Below, in pieces: positions 12,549 through 57,014 of a stretch of 64,000 nucleotides of DNA (position 1 is its first letter; each line of letters begins with the position of its first letter). The notes under the pieces were generated by a model. The model did not search any database, was not told where the DNA came from, and saw only the letters and a list, made by a program, of their open reading frames with translations. The translations under genes were made by a program, and so were the position numbers. The DNA comes from Halalkalibacter suaedae (GTDB lineage Bacteria; Bacillota; Bacilli; Bacillales; Bacillaceae_D): NCBI RefSeq assembly GCF_017939705.1, contig NZ_JAGKSQ010000002.1:248001-312000 (forward strand), in the 5' to 3' direction.

Positions 12549-12649
12549 GCTTAGAAAAGAGAAGTTGATTTTTAAATTCTATTAAAAAAATCTCTTGCAA
12601 AATGACCTAACTTGTTGTAATTTTAGACTAATAAAATAATTTTTGAATT

Positions 12650-12806
12650 CTTATCAAGAGAGACGGAGGGAATGGCCCTATGATGTCTCAGCAACCAGCC
12701 TATAGTAGGTCAGGTGCTAAATCCATCAAGTCATTGACTTGAAAGATAAGAAGGAGTGCTTGCTGATAACAACAACACCTTCTTCTTACCGAGAAGGTGT
12801 TTTTTA
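12650..12806 (+). promoter_or_regulatory. SAM-I (S-box) riboswitch with transcription terminator
   Basis: The S-box core is recognisable in order: P1 5' strand CTTATC (12650-12655), AAGAGAGACGGAGGGA, GGCCCTATGA, CAGCAACC, GGTGCTAA and the closing GAAAGATAAG, with P1 3' strand GATAAG at 12745-12750. A terminator follows: ACACCTTCT (12775-12783) / AGAAGGTGT (12792-12800) plus six T. AAGAAGG at 12748-12754, just after P1, can pair with CCTTCTT at 12778-12784 to form the antiterminator. With SAM bound, P1 forms and transcription stops; without SAM it reads into metI. Confidence 0.96.
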
Positions 12807-43672: not shown

Positions 43673-45181
43673 ATGATAACCCCTAATGTAGAAACATTTC
43701 AATCCCTAGCAAAACAATTCAAAACAATCCCGGTGACCGAGCAATTATTTGCTGATGGTCTCACCCCTGTACAAATTGTCCATCAATTAGGTGACCAAGT
43801 ATCCTTTTTACTAGAGAGTAAGGATGATCATTCACCATGGTCAAGATTCTCATTTATCGGTCTTAACCCAATGTTTGAGCTTGTTGAGGATGCAGGAACG
43901 TATCGTACCGTATCAAAGGATCAAGAAGTCGTTGTTGAAGCAAATACCTTCCAAGAAGCATTTGAGCAGACAATGACATTCCTAGATGTTCAACCACTAG
44001 AAATGGAGATTCCTTTTCGTGGTGGAGCTGTAGGCTATATGAGTTATGATGCTATAGAAACAATTGAACCTTCTTTGACAGTTGAACGAAAGGAGAGACT
44101 TCCTCACTATCAATTTCTTTTTTGCCAAACATTAATCGCTTACGATCATGTAAAGAAGGAATTAACGATTTTATATCATGCAAGACCCGAGAAGCACTCT
44201 GAGGTAGAAGCTTACACTGAAGCTAAAAATGAAATCGAGAAAATATCTTTTTTACTTGAACAGCCACAAAGTGGACTCCTTTTAAAGAGAGTTCCGGAAA
44301 CAAGTGACGACGTTTCATTTGACGGTGTGACTTCAAACTATGATAAGGAAACATTCATTTCACATGTTAATAAGATTAAGGATTATATTCGTTCGGGTGA
44401 TGTATTTCAAACGGTTCTCTCTCAACGATTCGAAATGAATGTGACGGCTAAAGCCTTAGAAGTATATCGAGTGCTTCGAATGGTTAATCCTTCTCCTTAT
44501 TTGTTTTATCTTAAATTTGATGAAATAGAGGTTGTCGGTAGCTCGCCAGAACGTCTAGTGCAGGTTCAGGATGGGCATGTAGAGATCCATCCGATTGCTG
44601 GTACTAGGAAGCGCGGAAGAAGTGTAGAGGAAGATCAATCACTTGCAACTGAGTTATTAGCTGATGAAAAAGAACGTGCAGAGCATTATATGCTCGTTGA
44701 TCTTGCCAGAAATGATGTTGGCCGGATAGCGGAGTATGGATCAGTTGAAACCCCAACTTTACTTGAAATTGGTCGGTTTTCGCATGTGATGCATATTATT
44801 TCAAAAGTTACAGGACGACTTCGCAAAGGAACAGAGCCACTTGAGGCTTTAATGGCTTCATTTCCAGCAGGAACGGTCTCTGGTGCACCGAAGATTAGAG
44901 CAATGGAAATTTTACAAGAGCTAGAGCCAACCAATCGTGGATTGTATGCCGGAGCCATCGGTTACTTAGGGTATGACGGGAATATTGATTCTTGTATTGC
45001 CATTCGGACAATGGTTATACAAAACGGGAAGGCATATATTCAAGCAGGGGCTGGTGTTGTTGCTGATTCAGTACCAGAGAAAGAATATGAAGAAACACAA
45101 AATAAAGCAAAAGCATTGATTCGAGCAGTGCAGTTAGCGGAAAGTATGTTTGGTACTAAGGGGGTTAAAACACATGCTTAA
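43673..45181 (+). CDS. trpE: Anthranilate synthase component I
   Basis: A 502-aa enzyme that uses chorismate and ammonia or glutamine to make anthranilate. The tryptophan feedback site LLES is at about residues 47-50, and the chorismate-binding C-terminal half has SGDVFQTVLSQRF, PIAGTRKRG and FPAGTVSGAPKIRAMEI. No trpG is present in the operon; as in B. subtilis the glutamine amidotransferase subunit is presumably pabA in a folate operon. Expression is governed by the TRAP leader and the site-sequestering hairpin ahead. Confidence 0.97.
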   Translation: MITPNVETFQSLAKQFKTIPVTEQLFADGLTPVQIVHQLGDQVSFLLESKDDHSPWSRFSFIGLNPMFELVEDAGTYRTVSKDQEVVVEANTFQEAFEQTMTFLDVQPLEMEIPFRGGAVGYMSYDAIETIEPSLTVERKERLPHYQFLFCQTLIAYDHVKKELTILYHARPEKHSEVEAYTEAKNEIEKISFLLEQPQSGLLLKRVPETSDDVSFDGVTSNYDKETFISHVNKIKDYIRSGDVFQTVLSQRFEMNVTAKALEVYRVLRMVNPSPYLFYLKFDEIEVVGSSPERLVQVQDGHVEIHPIAGTRKRGRSVEEDQSLATELLADEKERAEHYMLVDLARNDVGRIAEYGSVETPTLLEIGRFSHVMHIISKVTGRLRKGTEPLEALMASFPAGTVSGAPKIRAMEILQELEPTNRGLYAGAIGYLGYDGNIDSCIAIRTMVIQNGKAYIQAGAGVVADSVPEKEYEETQNKAKALIRAVQLAESMFGTKGVKTHA

Positions 45182-49607: not shown

Positions 49608-50702
49608 ATGGAAGTTAAAAAACAGTTACTTGGTTTGCCCTCGTACAAACCTGGTAAGCCAATTGATGAAGTAAAAAAAGAATTAGGTTTAACGAAGGTT
49701 GTTAAACTAGCTTCGAATGAAAATCCTTTTGGTGCTTCTCCTAAAGCAGCGGAGGCAATTCGTCAAATGGCCGCACAAACAGCGGTCTATCCAGATGGTT
49801 ATGCTGCCGAGCTTAGAGAAAAAGTCGCGAATAAAATTGGTGTTGAACCGAACCAATTGGTATTTGGAAATGGTTCAGATGAAGTTATCCAATTTTTGTG
49901 TCGATCGTTATTATCACCAGGTACAAATACAGTTACGGCAGATCCATCCTTTTCTCAATATAAGTTAAATGCAACAATTGAAGGTGCCGAGGTGCGTGAA
50001 GTCCCTTGTATTGATGGTGTACATGATTTAGACTCGATGCTAAAGGAAATTGATGCGAACACGAAAATTGTTTGGGTATGTAATCCGAACAATCCTTCGG
50101 GTACATATGTAAATGAACAAAAATTCAAACAATTCTTGGAACAGGTGCCATCAAATGTTTTAGTTGTTTCAGACGAGGCGTACTATGAGTATGTAACGGC
50201 TGAAGATTATCCAGAGACTCTGCCATTACTTAAAGAGTACGATAATTTAATGGTACTAAGAACATTTTCAAAAGCTTATGGATTAGCAGCATTAAGAGTT
50301 GGATACGGTGTAGCCAATTCTGAGTTGATTTCTAAAATTGATCCTGTTCGTCCTCCATTCAATAACAATACGTTTGCTCACGTAGCAGCATCTGCTGCTT
50401 TAGATGACGATCTCTTTATTTCTGAATGTGTTAGTAAAAATACAGACGGTTTAAAGCAATTTGAGGAGTTTTGTGATAAGCATGGCTTAACATATTACCC
50501 TTCACAGACGAATTTCATACTAATTGATTTCAAACAATCTGGTGATGTTGTCTTCGATTATTTATTACGTAAAGGTTTCATTGTCCGTTCTGGTGAAGCA
50601 CTTGGCTATCCGACATGCATTCGAATAACGGTAGGTAGTCAAGATGAGAACAAGGAGTTATTTGAGCATTTAGAATCTATGCTACAAGCCGCATTTCAAT
50701 AG
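49608..50702 (+). CDS. hisC: Histidinol-phosphate / aromatic aminotransferase
   Basis: A 364-aa class II PLP aminotransferase. It shows KLASNENPFGASPKAAEAI, the cofactor-site NPNNPSGTYV, DEAYYEYV and the PLP lysine in RTFSKAYGLAALRVGYG. In B. subtilis HisC serves both histidine and phenylalanine/tyrosine synthesis, which explains its place in the aromatic operon. ATG 49608 follows GAGGTG by about eight bases; GTG 49599 lies inside that site. Confidence 0.94.
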   Translation: MEVKKQLLGLPSYKPGKPIDEVKKELGLTKVVKLASNENPFGASPKAAEAIRQMAAQTAVYPDGYAAELREKVANKIGVEPNQLVFGNGSDEVIQFLCRSLLSPGTNTVTADPSFSQYKLNATIEGAEVREVPCIDGVHDLDSMLKEIDANTKIVWVCNPNNPSGTYVNEQKFKQFLEQVPSNVLVVSDEAYYEYVTAEDYPETLPLLKEYDNLMVLRTFSKAYGLAALRVGYGVANSELISKIDPVRPPFNNNTFAHVAASAALDDDLFISECVSKNTDGLKQFEEFCDKHGLTYYPSQTNFILIDFKQSGDVVFDYLLRKGFIVRSGEALGYPTCIRITVGSQDENKELFEHLESMLQAAFQ

Positions 50703-50718
50703 AGATAAGATGAAAATC

Positions 50719-50749
50719 CGTCTTTCATGCTAGATGAAGGGCGTTTTTT
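50719..50749 (+). terminator. Terminator-like hairpin between hisC and tyrA
   Basis: Ten-bp stem CGTCTTTCAT / ATGAAGGGCG (two G-T pairs), five-base loop, then six T. It may only partly terminate, since tyrA and aroA belong to the same supraoperon. Confidence 0.75.
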
Positions 50750-50778
50750 CGTAAAGATGTGGGTGGAAGGAGAACAGA

Positions 50779-51876
50779 ATGAAGCGTACGGTCTTTATCA
50801 TTGGACTTGGATTAATCGGTGGTTCAATTTCATTGTCCATTCGAGCTGAGCATGATGTACATATTAGAGGTTTTGATATTTCAGAAGAACAAATGAAAAT
50901 GGCTTTATCATTAAAAGTAATTGATTCTGCCGCGGCTTCGATTGAAGAAGGCGTTATTGATGCTGATCTAATTGTTTTTGCAACCCCTGTGCTAAAAACA
51001 GAGCAATTACTGCAAGAATTAGTAGATTATAAATTGAAGAATGGAGCTATTATAACAGATGTTGGTAGTACAAAACGTCGGATTGTTGAAAAAGCAACTT
51101 GCCTAGAAGATAAGGGTGTTACATTTATTGGTGGTCATCCAATGGCTGGGTCTCATAAAAGTGGGGTTGAAGCAGCGAAAGCACATTTGTTTGAAAATGC
51201 TTTTTACATATTTACCCCGGCACCACGAACGGATGTACGTTCAATTATTCAATTACAAAACTGGTTAAAAGGTACGAAGGCAACATTTATTGAATTGACA
51301 GCAGAGCAGCACGATCATTTAGCAGGTGCTATCAGTCACTTTCCTCATATTATTGCAGCGAGTCTTGTCCATCAAGTTGCGAAGTTAGAAGAAGAGGATC
51401 CTTTAGTCGCTCGCTTAGCTGCAGGGGGATTTCGTGATATTACACGAATCGCTTCTTCAAGTCCGATGATGTGGCGAGACATCTTGCTACACAATAAAGA
51501 AAGCCTACTTCATTTGTTGAAATCATGGTCGGATGAAATGGATTTGGTCCGTGACATGATTGAACAAGGAAATGCAGAGGACATTTATACCTACTTTGCT
51601 GAAGCAAAATCATTCAGAGATGAGATGCCTATCAGAGAAAAGGGAGCGATCCCGGCATTTTATGATTTATTTGTCGATGTTCCTGATCACCCAGGGGTTA
51701 TCTCTGATGTGACAAGCATTTTAGCAGAGCATCAAATTAGTTTAACGAATATTCGAATACTTGAAACAAGAGAAGATATTATGGGTGTTCTAAGCATTAG
51801 CTTTCGCTCTGAGGAAGATCGAGAACGTGCCCAATTGCATCTTAGTGAGCAAATGTATGAGACATATATTATGTAG
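50779..51876 (+). CDS. tyrA: Prephenate dehydrogenase with ACT domain
   Basis: A 365-aa NAD-dependent enzyme of tyrosine synthesis. The N-terminal Rossmann motif GLGLIGGSISLSI is at residues 8-20, GGHPMAGSHKSGVEAA forms the prephenate site, and the last 75 residues are an ACT domain (VDVPDHPGVISDVTSILAE) for feedback regulation. AAGGAGA precedes the ATG. It matches the B. subtilis order hisC-tyrA-aroE. Confidence 0.95.
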   Translation: MKRTVFIIGLGLIGGSISLSIRAEHDVHIRGFDISEEQMKMALSLKVIDSAAASIEEGVIDADLIVFATPVLKTEQLLQELVDYKLKNGAIITDVGSTKRRIVEKATCLEDKGVTFIGGHPMAGSHKSGVEAAKAHLFENAFYIFTPAPRTDVRSIIQLQNWLKGTKATFIELTAEQHDHLAGAISHFPHIIAASLVHQVAKLEEEDPLVARLAAGGFRDITRIASSSPMMWRDILLHNKESLLHLLKSWSDEMDLVRDMIEQGNAEDIYTYFAEAKSFRDEMPIREKGAIPAFYDLFVDVPDHPGVISDVTSILAEHQISLTNIRILETREDIMGVLSISFRSEEDRERAQLHLSEQMYETYIM

Positions 51877-51891
51877 AAGGGGTGTTATAAG

Positions 51892-53181
51892 TTGAAACAA
51901 GCTGTTGTTCAACCACTTGAAGTGGGATTAAAAGGAAAAATACGTGTACCAGGAGACAAATCGATTTCTCATAGAGCAGTGATGTTTGGGGCGATCGCAG
52001 ATGGAACAACAACTGTAGAAGGGTTTTTACCTGGTGAAGATTGTTTGAGTACAATTAGTTGTTTCAGGAAACTAGGAGTTGTGATCGAACAGGATGGTGA
52101 ACGTGTAACAATTGAAGGTAAGGGATGGGATGGTCTCGTTGAACCTAGTGACATTCTTGATGTAGGTAATTCGGGAACAACAACAAGGCTTATGTTGGGA
52201 ATTTTAGCAACACGTCCGTTTCACTCTGTTGTTATTGGAGATGACTCGATTGCGAAAAGGCCTATGGGTCGAGTGACCGATCCTCTTCGTGAGATGGGTT
52301 CAATCATTGATGGGCGTGATCACGGTAATTTTACTCCTCTATCTATACGTGGAGGTTCAACAAAAGGGATTTCCTTTCAGTCTAAAGTAGCGAGTGCTCA
52401 GGTGAAGTCTGCTATTCTTTTAGCGGGTTTGCAGAGTGAAGGAGTAACGTCGGTTACAGAGCCTGCCTTATCACGTGACCATACAGAAAGAATGCTTGAA
52501 GCATATGGTGTTGAAGTTAAAAGAGATGGACTAAGTGTTTCTGTTGAAGGTGGACAATCATTAAAAGCACAACATATTATTGTTCCTGGTGACATCTCAT
52601 CTGCAGCTTTTTTTCTTGTTGCTGGTGCGATCGTTCCAAATAGTAAATTGACGCTACAAGGAGTAGGGATTAATCCCACTCGTTCAGGAATTATTGATGT
52701 TCTTGAAAAAATGGGTGCTTCAATTGAAATTGAAAATAAAAAAATGGTTGGAGGGGAGCCAATTGCAGACTTAACGATCTCTACCTCTAATCTAAAAGGA
52801 ATTGAAATCGGTGGTGATCTAATTCCAAGATTAATTGATGAAATTCCTGTAATAGCTGTTTTGGCAACTCAAGCCGAAGGAAAGACGGTTATTTTTGATG
52901 CGGAAGAATTAAAAGTGAAAGAGACAAATCGAATTGATACAGTTGTCACTCAATTAGAAAAGCTTGGTGCTACGATTACAGCTACTGATGATGGCATGAT
53001 CATCGAAGGGAAAACAACCTTAAATGGAGCTTCTGTTAGTAGTTTTGGTGATCATCGTATTGGCATGGCAATGGCGATCGCTGGCTTAATTGCAAAAGGT
53101 AAGATGGAGATTGAACGGAGTGAAGCGATAGCTGTTTCCTATCCCGACTTTTTTGAACATATTGAAGCTTTAACAAAGTAG
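51892..53181 (+). CDS. aroA: 3-Phosphoshikimate 1-carboxyvinyltransferase (EPSP synthase)
   Basis: A 429-aa two-domain enzyme that makes EPSP, the substrate of AroF. It has [51 protein letters not shown] and [13 protein letters not shown]. The GDKSISHR and GNSGTTTR patterns resemble class II enzymes. The start is TTG 51892 with AGAAGGGGTG about nine bases upstream. In B. subtilis the gene is named aroE. It closes the supraoperon. Confidence 0.95.
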
Positions 53182-53190
53182 TGAATATAA

Positions 53191-53226
53191 GCGGTTTGAC
53201 CAGCACTTTGGTTAAACCGTTTATTT
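53191..53226 (+). terminator. Intrinsic terminator after aroA
   Basis: Eleven-bp stem GCGGTTTGACC / GGTTAAACCGT with G-T pairs and an eight-base loop, followed by T-rich sequence. Confidence 0.8.
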
Positions 53227-53241
53227 TTATATGAGATTAAC

Positions 53242-53332
53242 AAAAAAAGAGCCTTGAATTAAACTCGAAAGCGTTTACATTCAAGGCCAAAATAATAATG
53301 TATGGATAGGAGTGGAGAGAAACCATACGCTT
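53242..53332 (-). ncRNA. Predicted small regulatory RNA, about 91 nt
   Basis: On the minus strand a near-perfect SigA promoter (53366-53339) is followed by a non-coding stretch and a strong intrinsic terminator. The predicted RNA starts near 53332. Its first hairpin has arms 53328-53323 and 53305-53300 (GTATGG / CCATAC) around a 17-base C/U-rich loop reading TTTCTCTCCACTCCTAT, which is complementary to Shine-Dalgarno sequences. An AU-rich linker leads to the terminator: GCCTTGAAT (53287-53279) with ATTCAAGGC (53259-53251), extended inside by TAAAC/GTTTA, then TCTTTTTTT. No start codon with a site lies in it. Function by antisense pairing with mRNA start regions is inferred. Confidence 0.75.
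53251..53287 (-). terminator. Intrinsic terminator of the small RNA
   Basis: Nine perfect base pairs extended by an inner five-pair helix, followed on the minus strand by TC and seven T. On the plus strand the stem is not followed by T, so it acts leftward. Confidence 0.85.
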
Positions 53333-53338
53333 AATTTC

Positions 53339-53366
53339 ATTATACTTCTATTCTATATAATGTCAA
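53339..53366 (-). promoter_or_regulatory. Consensus SigA promoter for the minus-strand small RNA
   Basis: On the minus strand TTGACA (53366-53361) and TATAAT (53344-53339) are perfect hexamers separated by 16 bases. A plus-strand TATAAT at 53356-53361 overlaps it and may serve the divergent gene. Confidence 0.8.
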
Positions 53367-53391
53367 CAGCTTTTTACGATTTATTTTCAGA

Positions 53392-54396
53392 ATGTTGTTC
53401 TCTTTTATTAATCGAATTCATAGCTTGTCTTATAGAAATGAAAAGGAGGAGATCGAACTGTATCTATTAGATCGTGCTATTAAACTAGACGAAGAATGCA
53501 ATTCTCTCAGATCTTACTTAATTGATAATGGACAAGTAAATTATGTGACGACAACGTTTAATAAATGGAACAAGGGAAGAGTCTGTATGGCTGGGACAAG
53601 AATGTTAAATGGTCGAATCCTTCTAGATGACTTCATTTTACAAACAGAGCAGTTTGAGGATTTCCAAGACAGGCAGAAAGAACTGATCCAAAAAGGCTGT
53701 ACAACACTTGCAGTAGCTCCAAAGGTTCAATACGAATGTGAGATTGATAGTGAGTACAAAAGAACGATTCATAAACTAGCTAGTAGTACGTTAGATTTTG
53801 TTATTGGTTTAACAATCCCAGCAACGATGCTTAGATCTGAAGTCTTAAGGAAATGTCAGCTGCTTAAGATTCCCTTTTTAAGAGTAATGATTGATCATGA
53901 AAATGAGCTAGAATGTTTTCATTGGACACATCTTTCGAACACTTTACTTTCCTATCCCTTGACAATTATTCCGATTTTTAAGGCGGCTTCTAAGAAAATT
54001 GAGGAAAGTTGGAGAACATTTTGTTGCCATTATGGGATTCATACATCCGCTGAGATTATACATGAGCAGATTTGGAATAAGGCGTTACTTCAAAAAACAG
54101 GACTTTATCCACAAAAGGGTGCCCTAATTGGGGGGAGTGATGCAGATTATTTACTCTTTGCTGAAGCTAGCAAAGAAACAACTTCATCAATCGGAAAAGT
54201 TGCAACTGAAGCACACATTGTTTATCATAAAAAAGAACCCGATGTCGTTGTCTTAAAAGGTGAAATTGTTAAAGTTTATGATTCGATTTTGCTGAAACCA
54301 GGTTTTGGGAAGAAAATACAAGTAATTAGACCAGGAAGATTCTTATCTTTAATAGATATAGAAAGTAATGATCAGCAGCAAGTAAACTATGTGTAA
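53392..54396 (+). CDS. Amidohydrolase-like protein lacking metal ligands, function unknown
   Basis: A protein of up to 334 aa. The C-terminal segment TGLYPQKGALIGGSDADYLLF strongly resembles the end of cyclic amidohydrolases (dihydropyrimidinase, allantoinase, dihydroorotase), and GTRMLNGRILLDDFI resembles their N-terminal beta-sandwich. However, no HxH metal motif or other His/Asp ligands can be seen and the barrel is short, so it is probably not a normal hydrolase. ATG 53392 has no ribosome binding site, whereas an in-frame CTG at 53458 follows AAAAGGAGG by eight bases and matches the usual family start; the true protein may be 312 aa. It is a single gene closed by a palindromic terminator. 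Confidence 0.7.
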   Translation: MLFSFINRIHSLSYRNEKEEIELYLLDRAIKLDEECNSLRSYLIDNGQVNYVTTTFNKWNKGRVCMAGTRMLNGRILLDDFILQTEQFEDFQDRQKELIQKGCTTLAVAPKVQYECEIDSEYKRTIHKLASSTLDFVIGLTIPATMLRSEVLRKCQLLKIPFLRVMIDHENELECFHWTHLSNTLLSYPLTIIPIFKAASKKIEESWRTFCCHYGIHTSAEIIHEQIWNKALLQKTGLYPQKGALIGGSDADYLLFAEASKETTSSIGKVATEAHIVYHKKEPDVVVLKGEIVKVYDSILLKPGFGKKIQVIRPGRFLSLIDIESNDQQQVNYV

Positions 54397-54440
54397 TGTA
54401 GAAGAGTCAGTATTTTCTGTTGCGTTTCGCTTAATATGAG

Positions 54441-54483
54441 TTAAAAACAAGAAAAACCGATGATCGGTTTTTCTTGTTTTTAA
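54441..54483. terminator. Perfect 21-bp palindromic terminator
   Basis: Arms 54441-54461 and 54463-54483 are exact complements around a single G. Both ends are A- or T-rich, so it can terminate in either direction; it separates the amidohydrolase-like gene from ypiA. Confidence 0.88.
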
Positions 54484-54541
54484 AGGGGAATCATTATAAG
54501 TGTCGAAATGGAGAATAGGACTTAATGACGGAGGAATGAAT

Positions 54542-55801
54542 GTGATAAAAGAGATAGAAAAAGCGATTGCGGCAATTGAATTAGGAGATGTAGATAAAGG
54601 ACTCGGTGACTTGAAGCAACTGCTAAAGCGTGCTGACCATCAATCGAAATATGATATTGCTCAAGTTTTCCATGAACTAGGTCATGTTGAGCAAGCGAAA
54701 GAAATTATTGATGAACTAATGATGATGTACCCAGATGAAGGAAGTTTGAATGCACTCGCAGCAGAACTGTTAATTGATATGGATCAGGAAGACGAGGCAA
54801 TTGAACTTCTGCAGGATATAAAAGAGGACGATGAAGCTTTTTTGCAAGCGCAGTTGTTGTTAGCCGATTTGTACCAAATGCAATCACTTGATGAGGTTGC
54901 AGAGCAAAAGCTGTTACTAGCTTTCAAAAAGGCTCCAGACGAAATGATTATCTCATACGGACTTGGGGAATTTTATTTAGAACGAGGGGATTATGTTAAA
55001 AGCATACCTTATTTAAAAAAAGCGGTTCATTCAGGTGAAGAAATCAAAGATGTTCATCTTGAACTGAGACTAGCGGAAGCATACAGTGCAAGCGGGCAAT
55101 TTGAGGATGCTCTTATCTACTATCAACGAGGACTAAAAAACCATTTAGAACCACATGCTTTGTTTGGCTATGGATTCACAGCATATCAAGTAGAGGATAT
55201 GGTTTTAGCGATTGAACAGTTTGAAGCACTCAAGGCATTGGATCCAGACTTTTCAACCGTTTATCCTTATCTAGCAAAGGCTTATGAAGCAGAGGGGCGG
55301 ATCGATGATGCACTTGAAACATTAAAAGCGGGTATGAGTGTTGATGAATTTAATGAATCCCTTTATATTCATGCAGCAAAGTTATCCTTTAAAAAGAATA
55401 CTGCAATTGATGGTGAAGCGTTCTTACGACAAGCGATTGCGATGAACCCATCAAATGTTGAAGCTGTACATACGCTTGCTGCCTTTTTGAAGCATGAGGA
55501 GATGTTTGAAGAATTATTGGATTTAATGAAACATATGAAGGAATACGGGGAAGAAGATGTTTTATATACATGGTATGAAGCTACGGCTTTAAAAGAACAA
55601 GATCTCTATGATGAAGCATATACTCTTTATAAGGAAATAGCAGGGCAACTAATAGAAGATGTTGATTTCTTAGAAGAATACGGATACTTTTTGTTAGAAT
55701 ATGGTCAACGCGAACGTGCAAAACAAATATTTTCAGAACTACTTAAACTGCAACCTGAACGAGGAGATATCCAAGAATTAATTGTAGATCTTTCAAATTA
55801 G
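54542..55801 (+). CDS. ypiA: Tetratricopeptide-repeat protein YpiA
   Basis: A 419-aa acidic protein made of about ten TPR-like helix pairs (for example DVKSIPYLKKAVH-type and DDALETLKAGM segments), with no enzyme motif or signal peptide; it is probably a cytoplasmic scaffold. GTG 54542 is chosen because GGAGG ends seven bases upstream; in-frame ATG 54536 is too close to that site and GTG 54500 has none. B. subtilis YpiA has the same length and lies between aroE and ypiB. Confidence 0.85.
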   Translation: MIKEIEKAIAAIELGDVDKGLGDLKQLLKRADHQSKYDIAQVFHELGHVEQAKEIIDELMMMYPDEGSLNALAAELLIDMDQEDEAIELLQDIKEDDEAFLQAQLLLADLYQMQSLDEVAEQKLLLAFKKAPDEMIISYGLGEFYLERGDYVKSIPYLKKAVHSGEEIKDVHLELRLAEAYSASGQFEDALIYYQRGLKNHLEPHALFGYGFTAYQVEDMVLAIEQFEALKALDPDFSTVYPYLAKAYEAEGRIDDALETLKAGMSVDEFNESLYIHAAKLSFKKNTAIDGEAFLRQAIAMNPSNVEAVHTLAAFLKHEEMFEELLDLMKHMKEYGEEDVLYTWYEATALKEQDLYDEAYTLYKEIAGQLIEDVDFLEEYGYFLLEYGQRERAKQIFSELLKLQPERGDIQELIVDLSN

Positions 55802-55863
55802 AGGAAATGAATTTGAGGTTGACGAATATCATATTTATACATCATCTTTAAGGAGGGATGAAA

Positions 55864-56412
55864 ATGGGTAATATCATTCCGGTTGTAGAAAAGAAAGAAT
55901 TCCTAAAAGGTTTTTTGCAACAATATGAATTAAAACGTCGTGAGTGTGCCTGGTTATTAAACTTTTTGATGAGTGATGATGATTTAATGAAGAAGGTGCA
56001 TTTTGTTGAGCAAGCAGCACATACGCCGAAAGCATTGATCATTTCAGCGAAAGGCGTTGATGGTATTCCCTTTTCCTTTCATAAAGAACACCAGGTGACG
56101 ACAGATACGGAGAAAGCTTTTCATGATATTCGTCTTAATCAAACAGAAGATATCTATATCGAACTTCACTTCACAGGTGCAAAACAATATCCTCCATATC
56201 TCGTTGTTCTTGAGGAGAACCCACACATTCCTGAGAATATTGAGCTTTCCGTTGCCTATCAGAAAGAAGCAGAGTACTTATTAAATCGCTCATTACGTTC
56301 ATTTAGAAAGGCTAAGCTAATTGAATCGATTGATGCGGCTCTGGATAAGCAGGATCGAGATCAATTTAATAAACTTGTAAATGAACTTTTACTACTAGAT
56401 AAAAAGGAATGA
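55864..56412 (+). CDS. ypiB: YpiB family protein (UPF0302)
   Basis: A 182-aa soluble protein of the YpiB family, recognisable from FLKGFLQQYELKRRECAWLLNFLMSDD and LNRSLRSFRKAKLIESIDAALD. ATG 55864 lies six bases after AGGAGGG, while ATG 55858 directly abuts the site and is unlikely. Function unknown; synteny ypiA-ypiB-ypiF-qcrA is kept. The stop codon is inside the downstream terminator stem. Confidence 0.88.
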   Translation: MGNIIPVVEKKEFLKGFLQQYELKRRECAWLLNFLMSDDDLMKKVHFVEQAAHTPKALIISAKGVDGIPFSFHKEHQVTTDTEKAFHDIRLNQTEDIYIELHFTGAKQYPPYLVVLEENPHIPENIELSVAYQKEAEYLLNRSLRSFRKAKLIESIDAALDKQDRDQFNKLVNELLLLDKKE

Positions 56413-56434
56413 CATTCAATCATTCCTTTTTTTA
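56401..56434 (+). terminator. Intrinsic terminator overlapping the ypiB stop
   Basis: Twelve-bp perfect stem AAAAAGGAATGA / TCATTCCTTTTT with a seven-base loop and T tract; the TGA stop is in the stem. Confidence 0.9.
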
Positions 56435-56453
56435 GTGGTTAATAATGATAATC

Positions 56454-56483
56454 TTGAACTTTAAAGTCGATTTACGTTACACT
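56454..56483 (+). promoter_or_regulatory. Candidate SigA promoter for ypiF
   Basis: TTGAAC at 56454 and TACACT at 56478 with 18-base spacing, just upstream of the ypiF ribosome binding site. Confidence 0.4.
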
Positions 56484-56503
56484 AAGTAAATGGAGGTGTC
56501 TCA

Positions 56504-56965
56504 ATGAAATGGCAGGCTAGTGATATGGATACATATTTACAGGCGAAGGAATATGTTGATACAGCTTTAATACCGCTTGTCCCAATATCTTGGAACAAAA
56601 ATGTCAAAGGAACCGTTTCATGGGGGGAATTTATCTCGATTATTTCTGTTGAAATCGAGAAGCAGTTTCAAGGGAGGATTGTTCATTTTCCTCCATTCAC
56701 ATATTTGATAAATGAGCCTATGAATCAGCGACTTGAACGGGTTAAGCTTTGGGAAGAAGAATTACAGGCTGGTGGAATTAAACACATCATTTACATAACT
56801 TCAGATGGTGATTGGCGTCAAATTGAGAACGATTTAAGTGGATTACATATATGGTTGCCTTCAATTCCATTGGAGCATCTGGAAGCAAAGAATCGACGTA
56901 CAGTTATCTCAGACCAACTGACCCAAATTATTCCAATATTTACTAAAAATTGGCAAGGTAATTAA
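56504..56965 (+). CDS. ypiF: YpiF-like protein (DUF2487-like)
   Basis: A 153-aa soluble protein beginning MKWQASDMDTYLQAKEYVDTALIPLVPI, which matches the YpiF family. No catalytic or membrane features are seen. GGAGGTG lies upstream of the ATG. It keeps the B. subtilis position directly ahead of qcrABC. Function unknown. Confidence 0.83.
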   Translation: MKWQASDMDTYLQAKEYVDTALIPLVPISWNKNVKGTVSWGEFISIISVEIEKQFQGRIVHFPPFTYLINEPMNQRLERVKLWEEELQAGGIKHIIYITSDGDWRQIENDLSGLHIWLPSIPLEHLEAKNRRTVISDQLTQIIPIFTKNWQGN

Positions 56966-57014
56966 ATGGACAAAATGTTCATAAATTTGCCTAATTTGTG
57001 CCGAATTGTAGATT

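Follow-up and report, generated by a model that had tools for sequence, protein, structure and literature searches.

RsaI (RsaOG) of Staphylococcus aureus is repressed by CcpA and blocks translation by pairing with Shine-Dalgarno (SD) sequences (excerpts of PMC9266662). Excerpts of PMC8216469 describe RsaI as conserved in Staphylococcus and not in Bacilli, and name glcU_2, fn3K and icaR as reported targets; they also present RosA of Bacillus subtilis as a CcpA-repressed sRNA of carbon metabolism. According to excerpts of PMC8464778, RosA sponges RoxS and FsrA, for which it has G-rich regions. FsrA and RoxS/RsaE pair with their targets through C-rich regions; FsrA was proposed to act at ribosome-binding sites and also affects gltAB and the leu genes (same excerpts). 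SR1 of B. subtilis is made under gluconeogenic conditions and is partly repressed by CcpA (also PMC8464778, in excerpt).

The sRNA gene described here resembles RsaI in its predicted SD pairing and in a CcpA-type control deduced from cre-like boxes, and it has no Rfam match. It differs from RosA in having a C/U-rich seed that would act on mRNAs. FsrA and RoxS are controlled by Fur, or by ResD and Rex, and have another seed, and neither they nor any other Rfam family matched here. SR1 differs as well, being 205 nt long, mainly under CcpN control, encoding SR1P and targeting ahrC and kinA. Spot 42 of enterobacteria, an sRNA under catabolite control whose targets include the gal operon, answers to CRP, not to CcpA. 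It is unrelated in sequence; the candidate targets here are amino-acid genes widely and, in a single genus, galT. An earlier note on this DNA had likened the locus to FsrA and RoxS. The likeness is confined to the mechanism, and we regard RsaI and Spot 42 as closer analogues because of the CcpA-type cre boxes. No report of the family was found in CC-licensed PMC full text. The kind of regulator is known (RsaI, RosA, FsrA, RoxS, Spot 42), while the family itself appears to be new.

The window is the 64,000-nucleotide stretch of DNA that was analysed. Within it, the observation of an sRNA gene was confirmed as real, and its features are collected in Table 1. The minus-strand promoter named by the earlier note was borne out. 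It is the sole perfect consensus match among 17 promoter-like sites at 50000-57000, a total lower than the shuffle mean of 23. The hairpin with its 17-nt loop and the terminator with its T run were found as the note had described them, and the predicted start lies a few bases upstream of the hairpin. The 94-nt segment 53335-53242 folds with -23.5 kcal/mol, as compared to a mean of -10.8 for 200 dinucleotide shuffles (z -5.2), none of which was equally stable. The terminator is absent from the list of an automated scan of 50000-57000, perhaps because its stem is bulged. Conservation in related genomes, proposed by the note as a check, was observed for each part: a permissive promoter pattern is present in 133 of 135 distinct copies, the 22-mer ATGGTTTCTCTCCACTCCTATC is exact in 129/135 (116 of the 135 having been selected by a core pattern), and a stem precedes the T run in 116/116, by the crude criterion of a dG below -5. 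These features are those of a stand-alone gene with its own promoter and terminator, which is presumably transcribed.

Table 1. Features of the sRNA locus and its neighbours (positions in the window)
Feature	Position	Strand	Remarks
aroA (EPSP synthase)	51892..53181	plus	NCBIfam TIGR01356; convergent neighbour, end of the trp-his-tyr-aro cluster
sRNA gene as a whole	53366-53242	minus	own consensus promoter, predicted ~91-nt transcript, terminator
Promoter TTGACA-N16-TATAAT	53339..53366	minus	consensus 12/12; -35 at 53366-53361, -10 at 53344-53339
Predicted sRNA, about 91 nt	53242..53332	minus	start predicted from -10 spacing, end from T run
5′ hairpin GTATGG/CCATAC, 17-nt loop TTTCTCTCCACTCCTAT	53300..53328	minus	GTATGG 53328-53323, CCATAC 53305-53300
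Constant 22-mer AUGGUUUCUCUCCACUCCUAUC, proposed seed	53305..53326	minus	near-invariant across copies
Intrinsic terminator stem-loop	53250..53288	minus	T run on to 53242
cre-like box ATGTAAACGCTTTCGA	53265..53280	minus	11/12 fixed positions; inside terminator stem-loop
AT-rich element upstream of -35	53382..53396	minus	UP-element-like; 12/15 to the CodY box as assumed here
ORF beside the sRNA gene	53392-54396	plus	relatives at the same place in many loci

A BLASTN match covering the core was obtained in 40 of 60 genomes, the window's own included; two weak hits that miss the core (G036 and G043) bring the raw tally to 42. The exact core pattern was found in 109 stretches of named genomes, and the 80 of them that were listed include Halalkalibacter, Shouchella, Fictibacillus, Aneurinibacillus, Paenibacillus, Melghirimyces and Kroppenstedtia. 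The same pattern gave 0 matches in viral contigs, and a phage origin was rejected. A covariance model built from 32 copies gave strong matches in 75 of 397 genomes sampled from the order (80 at E ≤ 0.01, less five weak ones) and, at E ≤ 1e-5, in 130 of 398 sampled from the class. Nearly throughout, there is one match per genome; in G642 there is a second copy (L450). Four weak hits of the model (G372, G255, G392 and G207) seem to be chance matches. In G139 (L197), the cre-bearing promoter and the terminator are kept and the core is broken; this is perhaps a degenerate, decaying copy. As the earlier note had found no named RNA, so the Rfam 15 covariance models gave no family over the sRNA: the four hits at E ≤ 5 within 53150-53450 are sub-threshold, none near its gathering score. 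A further 20 loci, including 18 that carry divergent copies, gave no Rfam match either. The one Rfam hit of the window is a SAM riboswitch at 12648-12752 (plus strand, 99.7 bits).

The position of the gene was surveyed with ten window proteins as queries against the 109 named loci (L031-L139). A match to hisC, tyrA or aroA lies within 400 nt of the sRNA gene in 98/109 loci and within 1.8 kb in 103/109. L049, L058, L075, L080 and L126 showed no match to these three genes, and L138 only a distant one. On the other side of the gene, the ORF at 53392-54396 has no Pfam or NCBIfam match. Its frame may start at CTG 53458, after a GGAGG motif; a relative in L037 starts with MYLLDK.

The earlier note had placed the key unit in the hairpin loop. 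The 29-nt hairpin is identical letter for letter in 28 of 30 loci, the window's own counted. Copies selected by the exact pattern are biased towards invariance; therefore 20 divergent copies were taken from the model hits, picked to spread over families and low scores. In these, the 22-mer is exact in 15/20 and its inner 17-mer in 18/20, whereas the CCAT of the 3′ stem half, present in 123/135 distinct copies, is found in 8/20 and missing from 12, some of which may form a weaker, bulged stem. Because of these 12 copies, we take the conserved unit to be linear, namely the 22-mer with its AUGG, rather than the closed loop; the hairpin is common in the window's relatives, yet is not the conserved feature. 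The 24-mer formed with the two preceding letters, which vary, is exact in 98/135 copies, and three copies (L190-L192) lack one loop base. The 17-nt part of the seed is predicted to be mostly unpaired, with a median probability of 0.96, a value above 0.7 in 115/135 copies and a minimum of 0.31. Covariation in the hairpin does not exceed that of shuffles, and it is uninformative since four of the six pairs never vary.

Candidate targets came to light in several searches. Two weak model hits, G278:C2 and G359:C21, are not RNA copies; they are galT start regions, on the opposite strand, which read GGAGAGGAGTGGAGAGAAACC-ATG. In these two genomes of one genus, the complementarity of galT to the seed is perfect over 19 nt, reaching from the SD into the AUG; galK lies just upstream of galT in G278. 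The seed is of the usual form in five genomes (L200, L201, L207-L209) that we take to belong to that genus. The pattern GGAGTGGAG-N(1-10)-ATG gave 393 hits in 41 genomes of family f1, as compared to 108 control hits. Among 20 strong f1 hits, serC and aroG (DAHP synthase) were found five times each, hom four times, serA once and other genes five times; the 29 loci supplied by the f1 search itself held one serC, two hom and one pheA, and 20 further hits held one serC, one aroG and one hom, each of them in G029. Outside f1, the 16 hits in genomes with the RNA (RNA+) included aroG, serA and hom once each, and none of the four hits in genomes without it (RNA-) was aroG, serA or hom. Named by eye, the other hits included a PTS EIIA gene, genes for sugar and for peptide transport, and unrelated genes. 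There was no genome-wide excess of GGAGTGGAG before ATG in 20 RNA+ genomes (115 hits to 38 controls) as compared to 20 RNA- genomes (87 to 28); therefore the target claim rests on the specific genes.

The leaders of serC, serA, aroG and hom orthologues were compared between 15 RNA+ and 15 RNA- genomes, with start codons set by rule rather than by annotation. Rows were dropped where no match was found, for serC in 5/15 RNA- genomes and for serA in 6/15 RNA- genomes and 1/15 RNA+ genomes (G000). The hom rows of G052 (alignment from residue 83) and G037 (41% paralogue) were excluded, as were second aroG matches in G080 and G047. GGAGTGG within 30 nt of the start was observed in 24 of 59 RNA+ leaders versus 0 of 47 RNA- leaders (Fisher 5.6e-8), in two groups of genomes that differ in ancestry. 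The four genes had been discovered in f1, and outside this family the counts are 13/32 versus 0/47 (1.3e-6). G013 (aroG) is the sole test genome represented in the selected discovery hits; two hits of G017 (aroG and hom, by position) were also visible in the f1 search. Exact complements of at least 8 nt to the hairpin sequence occur in 33/59 RNA+ versus 0/47 RNA- leaders, and of at least 10 nt in 16 versus 0. Permuted seeds reached a mean of 3.9/59 leaders and at most 26/59. As background, 45 of 799 ORF starts in the named loci matched, and beside the four genes 6/82 starts did so in RNA- and 8/108 in RNA+ genomes; some of the background matches are themselves amino-acid genes, named by eye (hisC, aroF-like, tyrA, thrC-like). 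Duplex energies evaluated against loop permutations gave a similar difference between RNA+ and RNA- genomes for three genes. GGAGTGG is missing from every leader tested in five of the 15 RNA+ genomes (G000, G003, G027, G069, G080). In the RNA- genome G051, GGAGTGGAG precedes a second, paralogous hom-like gene.

In the window's own genome, the hom leader contains a 13-nt perfect complement, and the serC and aroG leaders one of 8 nt each; GGAGTGG is found in none of these three leaders. The permutation p values of the pairing are 0.06 for serC, 0.52 for aroG and 0.07 for hom, and 2, 6 and 10 of 100 shuffled leaders, in the same order, did at least as well. The evidence from this genome is moderate; the pairing exceeds the thermodynamic controls by a modest margin, and these are no more than suggestive. 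Overall, the comparisons point to a seed that is conserved and accessible and is complementary to the start regions of mRNAs, with the starts of serC, serA, aroG and hom as likely targets. Among 64 starts in the window, those at 43673 and 47583 (plus strand), by eye trpE-like and trpB-like, are among the better seed matches (z -1.6 and -1.7).

Boxes for CcpA were scored against WTGNAANCGNWWNCAW, with 12 fixed positions, which we take to be the cre consensus. Of 116 distinct copies, 90 have a box with at least 10/12 positions in the terminator region (80 nt downstream of the core), versus 9.8% of shuffles, and 31 have one in the promoter region (60 nt upstream of the core), versus 9.5%. Counting either side, 98/116 copies have a box and 18/116 have none; the 20 divergent copies have 8 after the core and 7 before it. 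With this assumed consensus, the gene has the putative cre box expected of a CcpA-repressed sRNA of the RsaI or RosA type. CcpA would bind the predicted box and glucose would repress the gene, and the box in the terminator may work as a roadblock.

Building on the observed anatomy, conservation, position, cre-like boxes and gene-specific complementarity that tracks the presence of the RNA, we propose the following mechanism. The independent gene would give an RNA of ~91 nt whose 5′ region exposes the near-constant C/U-rich 22-mer. The 22-mer would pair with the SD-to-start regions of the serC and serA (serine), aroG and hom (homoserine) mRNAs and, in some lineages, of further genes, for example galT, thrC or hisC, and so block ribosome entry. 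CcpA, bound at the cre box in the terminator or, in other lineages, the promoter, would act on the gene as a repressor or a roadblock while a preferred sugar is available; therefore the RNA would be made when good sugar is absent. It would then reduce the amounts of 3-phosphoglycerate, PEP, erythrose-4-phosphate and aspartate that are drawn off for amino-acid synthesis. We infer the sign of the regulation, the repression of the targets and the physiology from sequence. The trans-acting anti-SD reading of the earlier note is supported by the conservation, the promoter, the terminator and the complementarity at the four genes. That the locus encodes a catabolite-repressed anti-SD sRNA cutting amino-acid synthesis in the absence of good sugar is, in our judgement, the probable reading, and the gene is probably a switch, so far unrecorded, through which amino-acid production is tied to sugar supply. 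More tentatively, with a chance slightly below even, a Bacilli family spanning the class would link catabolite control to the entry points of the serine, aromatic and aspartate families, the terminator box of the window's relatives acting as a CcpA roadblock at the end of the RNA and not at its promoter. If true, this would be an old riboregulator, common to many Bacilli, that ties sugar status to amino-acid synthesis. The seed hardly varies between the window's family and distant families of the class. The family would offer testable targets, and it suggests a cre-in-terminator arrangement worth attention.

Other readings of the constant stretch have to be considered. The earlier note had stated that no ORF exists. 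This is not literally so, since the core opens with ATG (MVSLHSYP...), soon after the predicted start in 133/135 distinct copies, and a leaderless micro-ORF, for example a leader peptide, could be translated from it. However, the frame does not look coding: third codon positions are invariant in the 116 copies selected by the core pattern, the exactness of the 22-mer extends to most divergent copies, and the frame runs from 8 to at least 100 codons with no common tail. Moreover, the ATG is missing in L437 and L439, and L190-L192 have lost one loop base. A micro-ORF is thus highly improbable and was rejected. The same holds for a leader or attenuator acting in cis on the neighbouring gene, a reading we find scarcely credible. 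Of the 109 named loci, 78 have the RNA co-directional with the aro cluster and the following genes, as such a leader would be, but in 29 it is inverted, as in the window, with its own promoter and terminator (2 were unassigned). Among the names listed, the inverted cases include Halalkalibacter, Shouchella and Alkalihalobacillus trypoxylicola. The gene flips yet keeps promoter and terminator, and therefore is a stand-alone gene and not a leader.

The constant stretch could also be read by a protein, the RNA being a protein-binding RNA or decoy. The constancy of ATGG, which lies in the stem in many species, exceeds what simple seed pairing needs, and the invariance of the hairpin pairs described above would fit as well. 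Nevertheless, leader complementarity tracks the presence of the RNA, and ATGG has its pairing partner, CCAU, at the galT start codon, so that we consider this reading unlikely. A general anti-SD mimic, acting on bulk translation without specific targets, is less probable still and was rejected: the seed resembles what we take to be the anti-SD tail of 16S rRNA, and genome-wide complement counts are alike with and without the RNA, but the enrichment is specific to serC, serA, aroG and hom.

In two copies, L446 at 1453-1477 and L447 at 1365-1389 (on the reverse complement), the seed is changed to TTTCTCTCTATTCCTTTCC, which offers a natural test of target co-variation: the matching leader would be GGAATAGAGAG, the unchanged one GGAGTGGAG. 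Upstream of the -35, a match of at least 12/15 to a CodY box is present in 44/115 copies versus 5.4% of shuffles, often at a fixed place. The match may equally be an UP element; the AT-rich element of the window fits both motifs, as we assume them to be. Finally, a seed complement of at least 8 nt lies within 120 nt upstream of the core in 6/135 copies. In L441, L407, L408 and L036, the promoter spacer holds a GAGTGGAGAG-like complement of the seed, on which a read-through RNA could fold.
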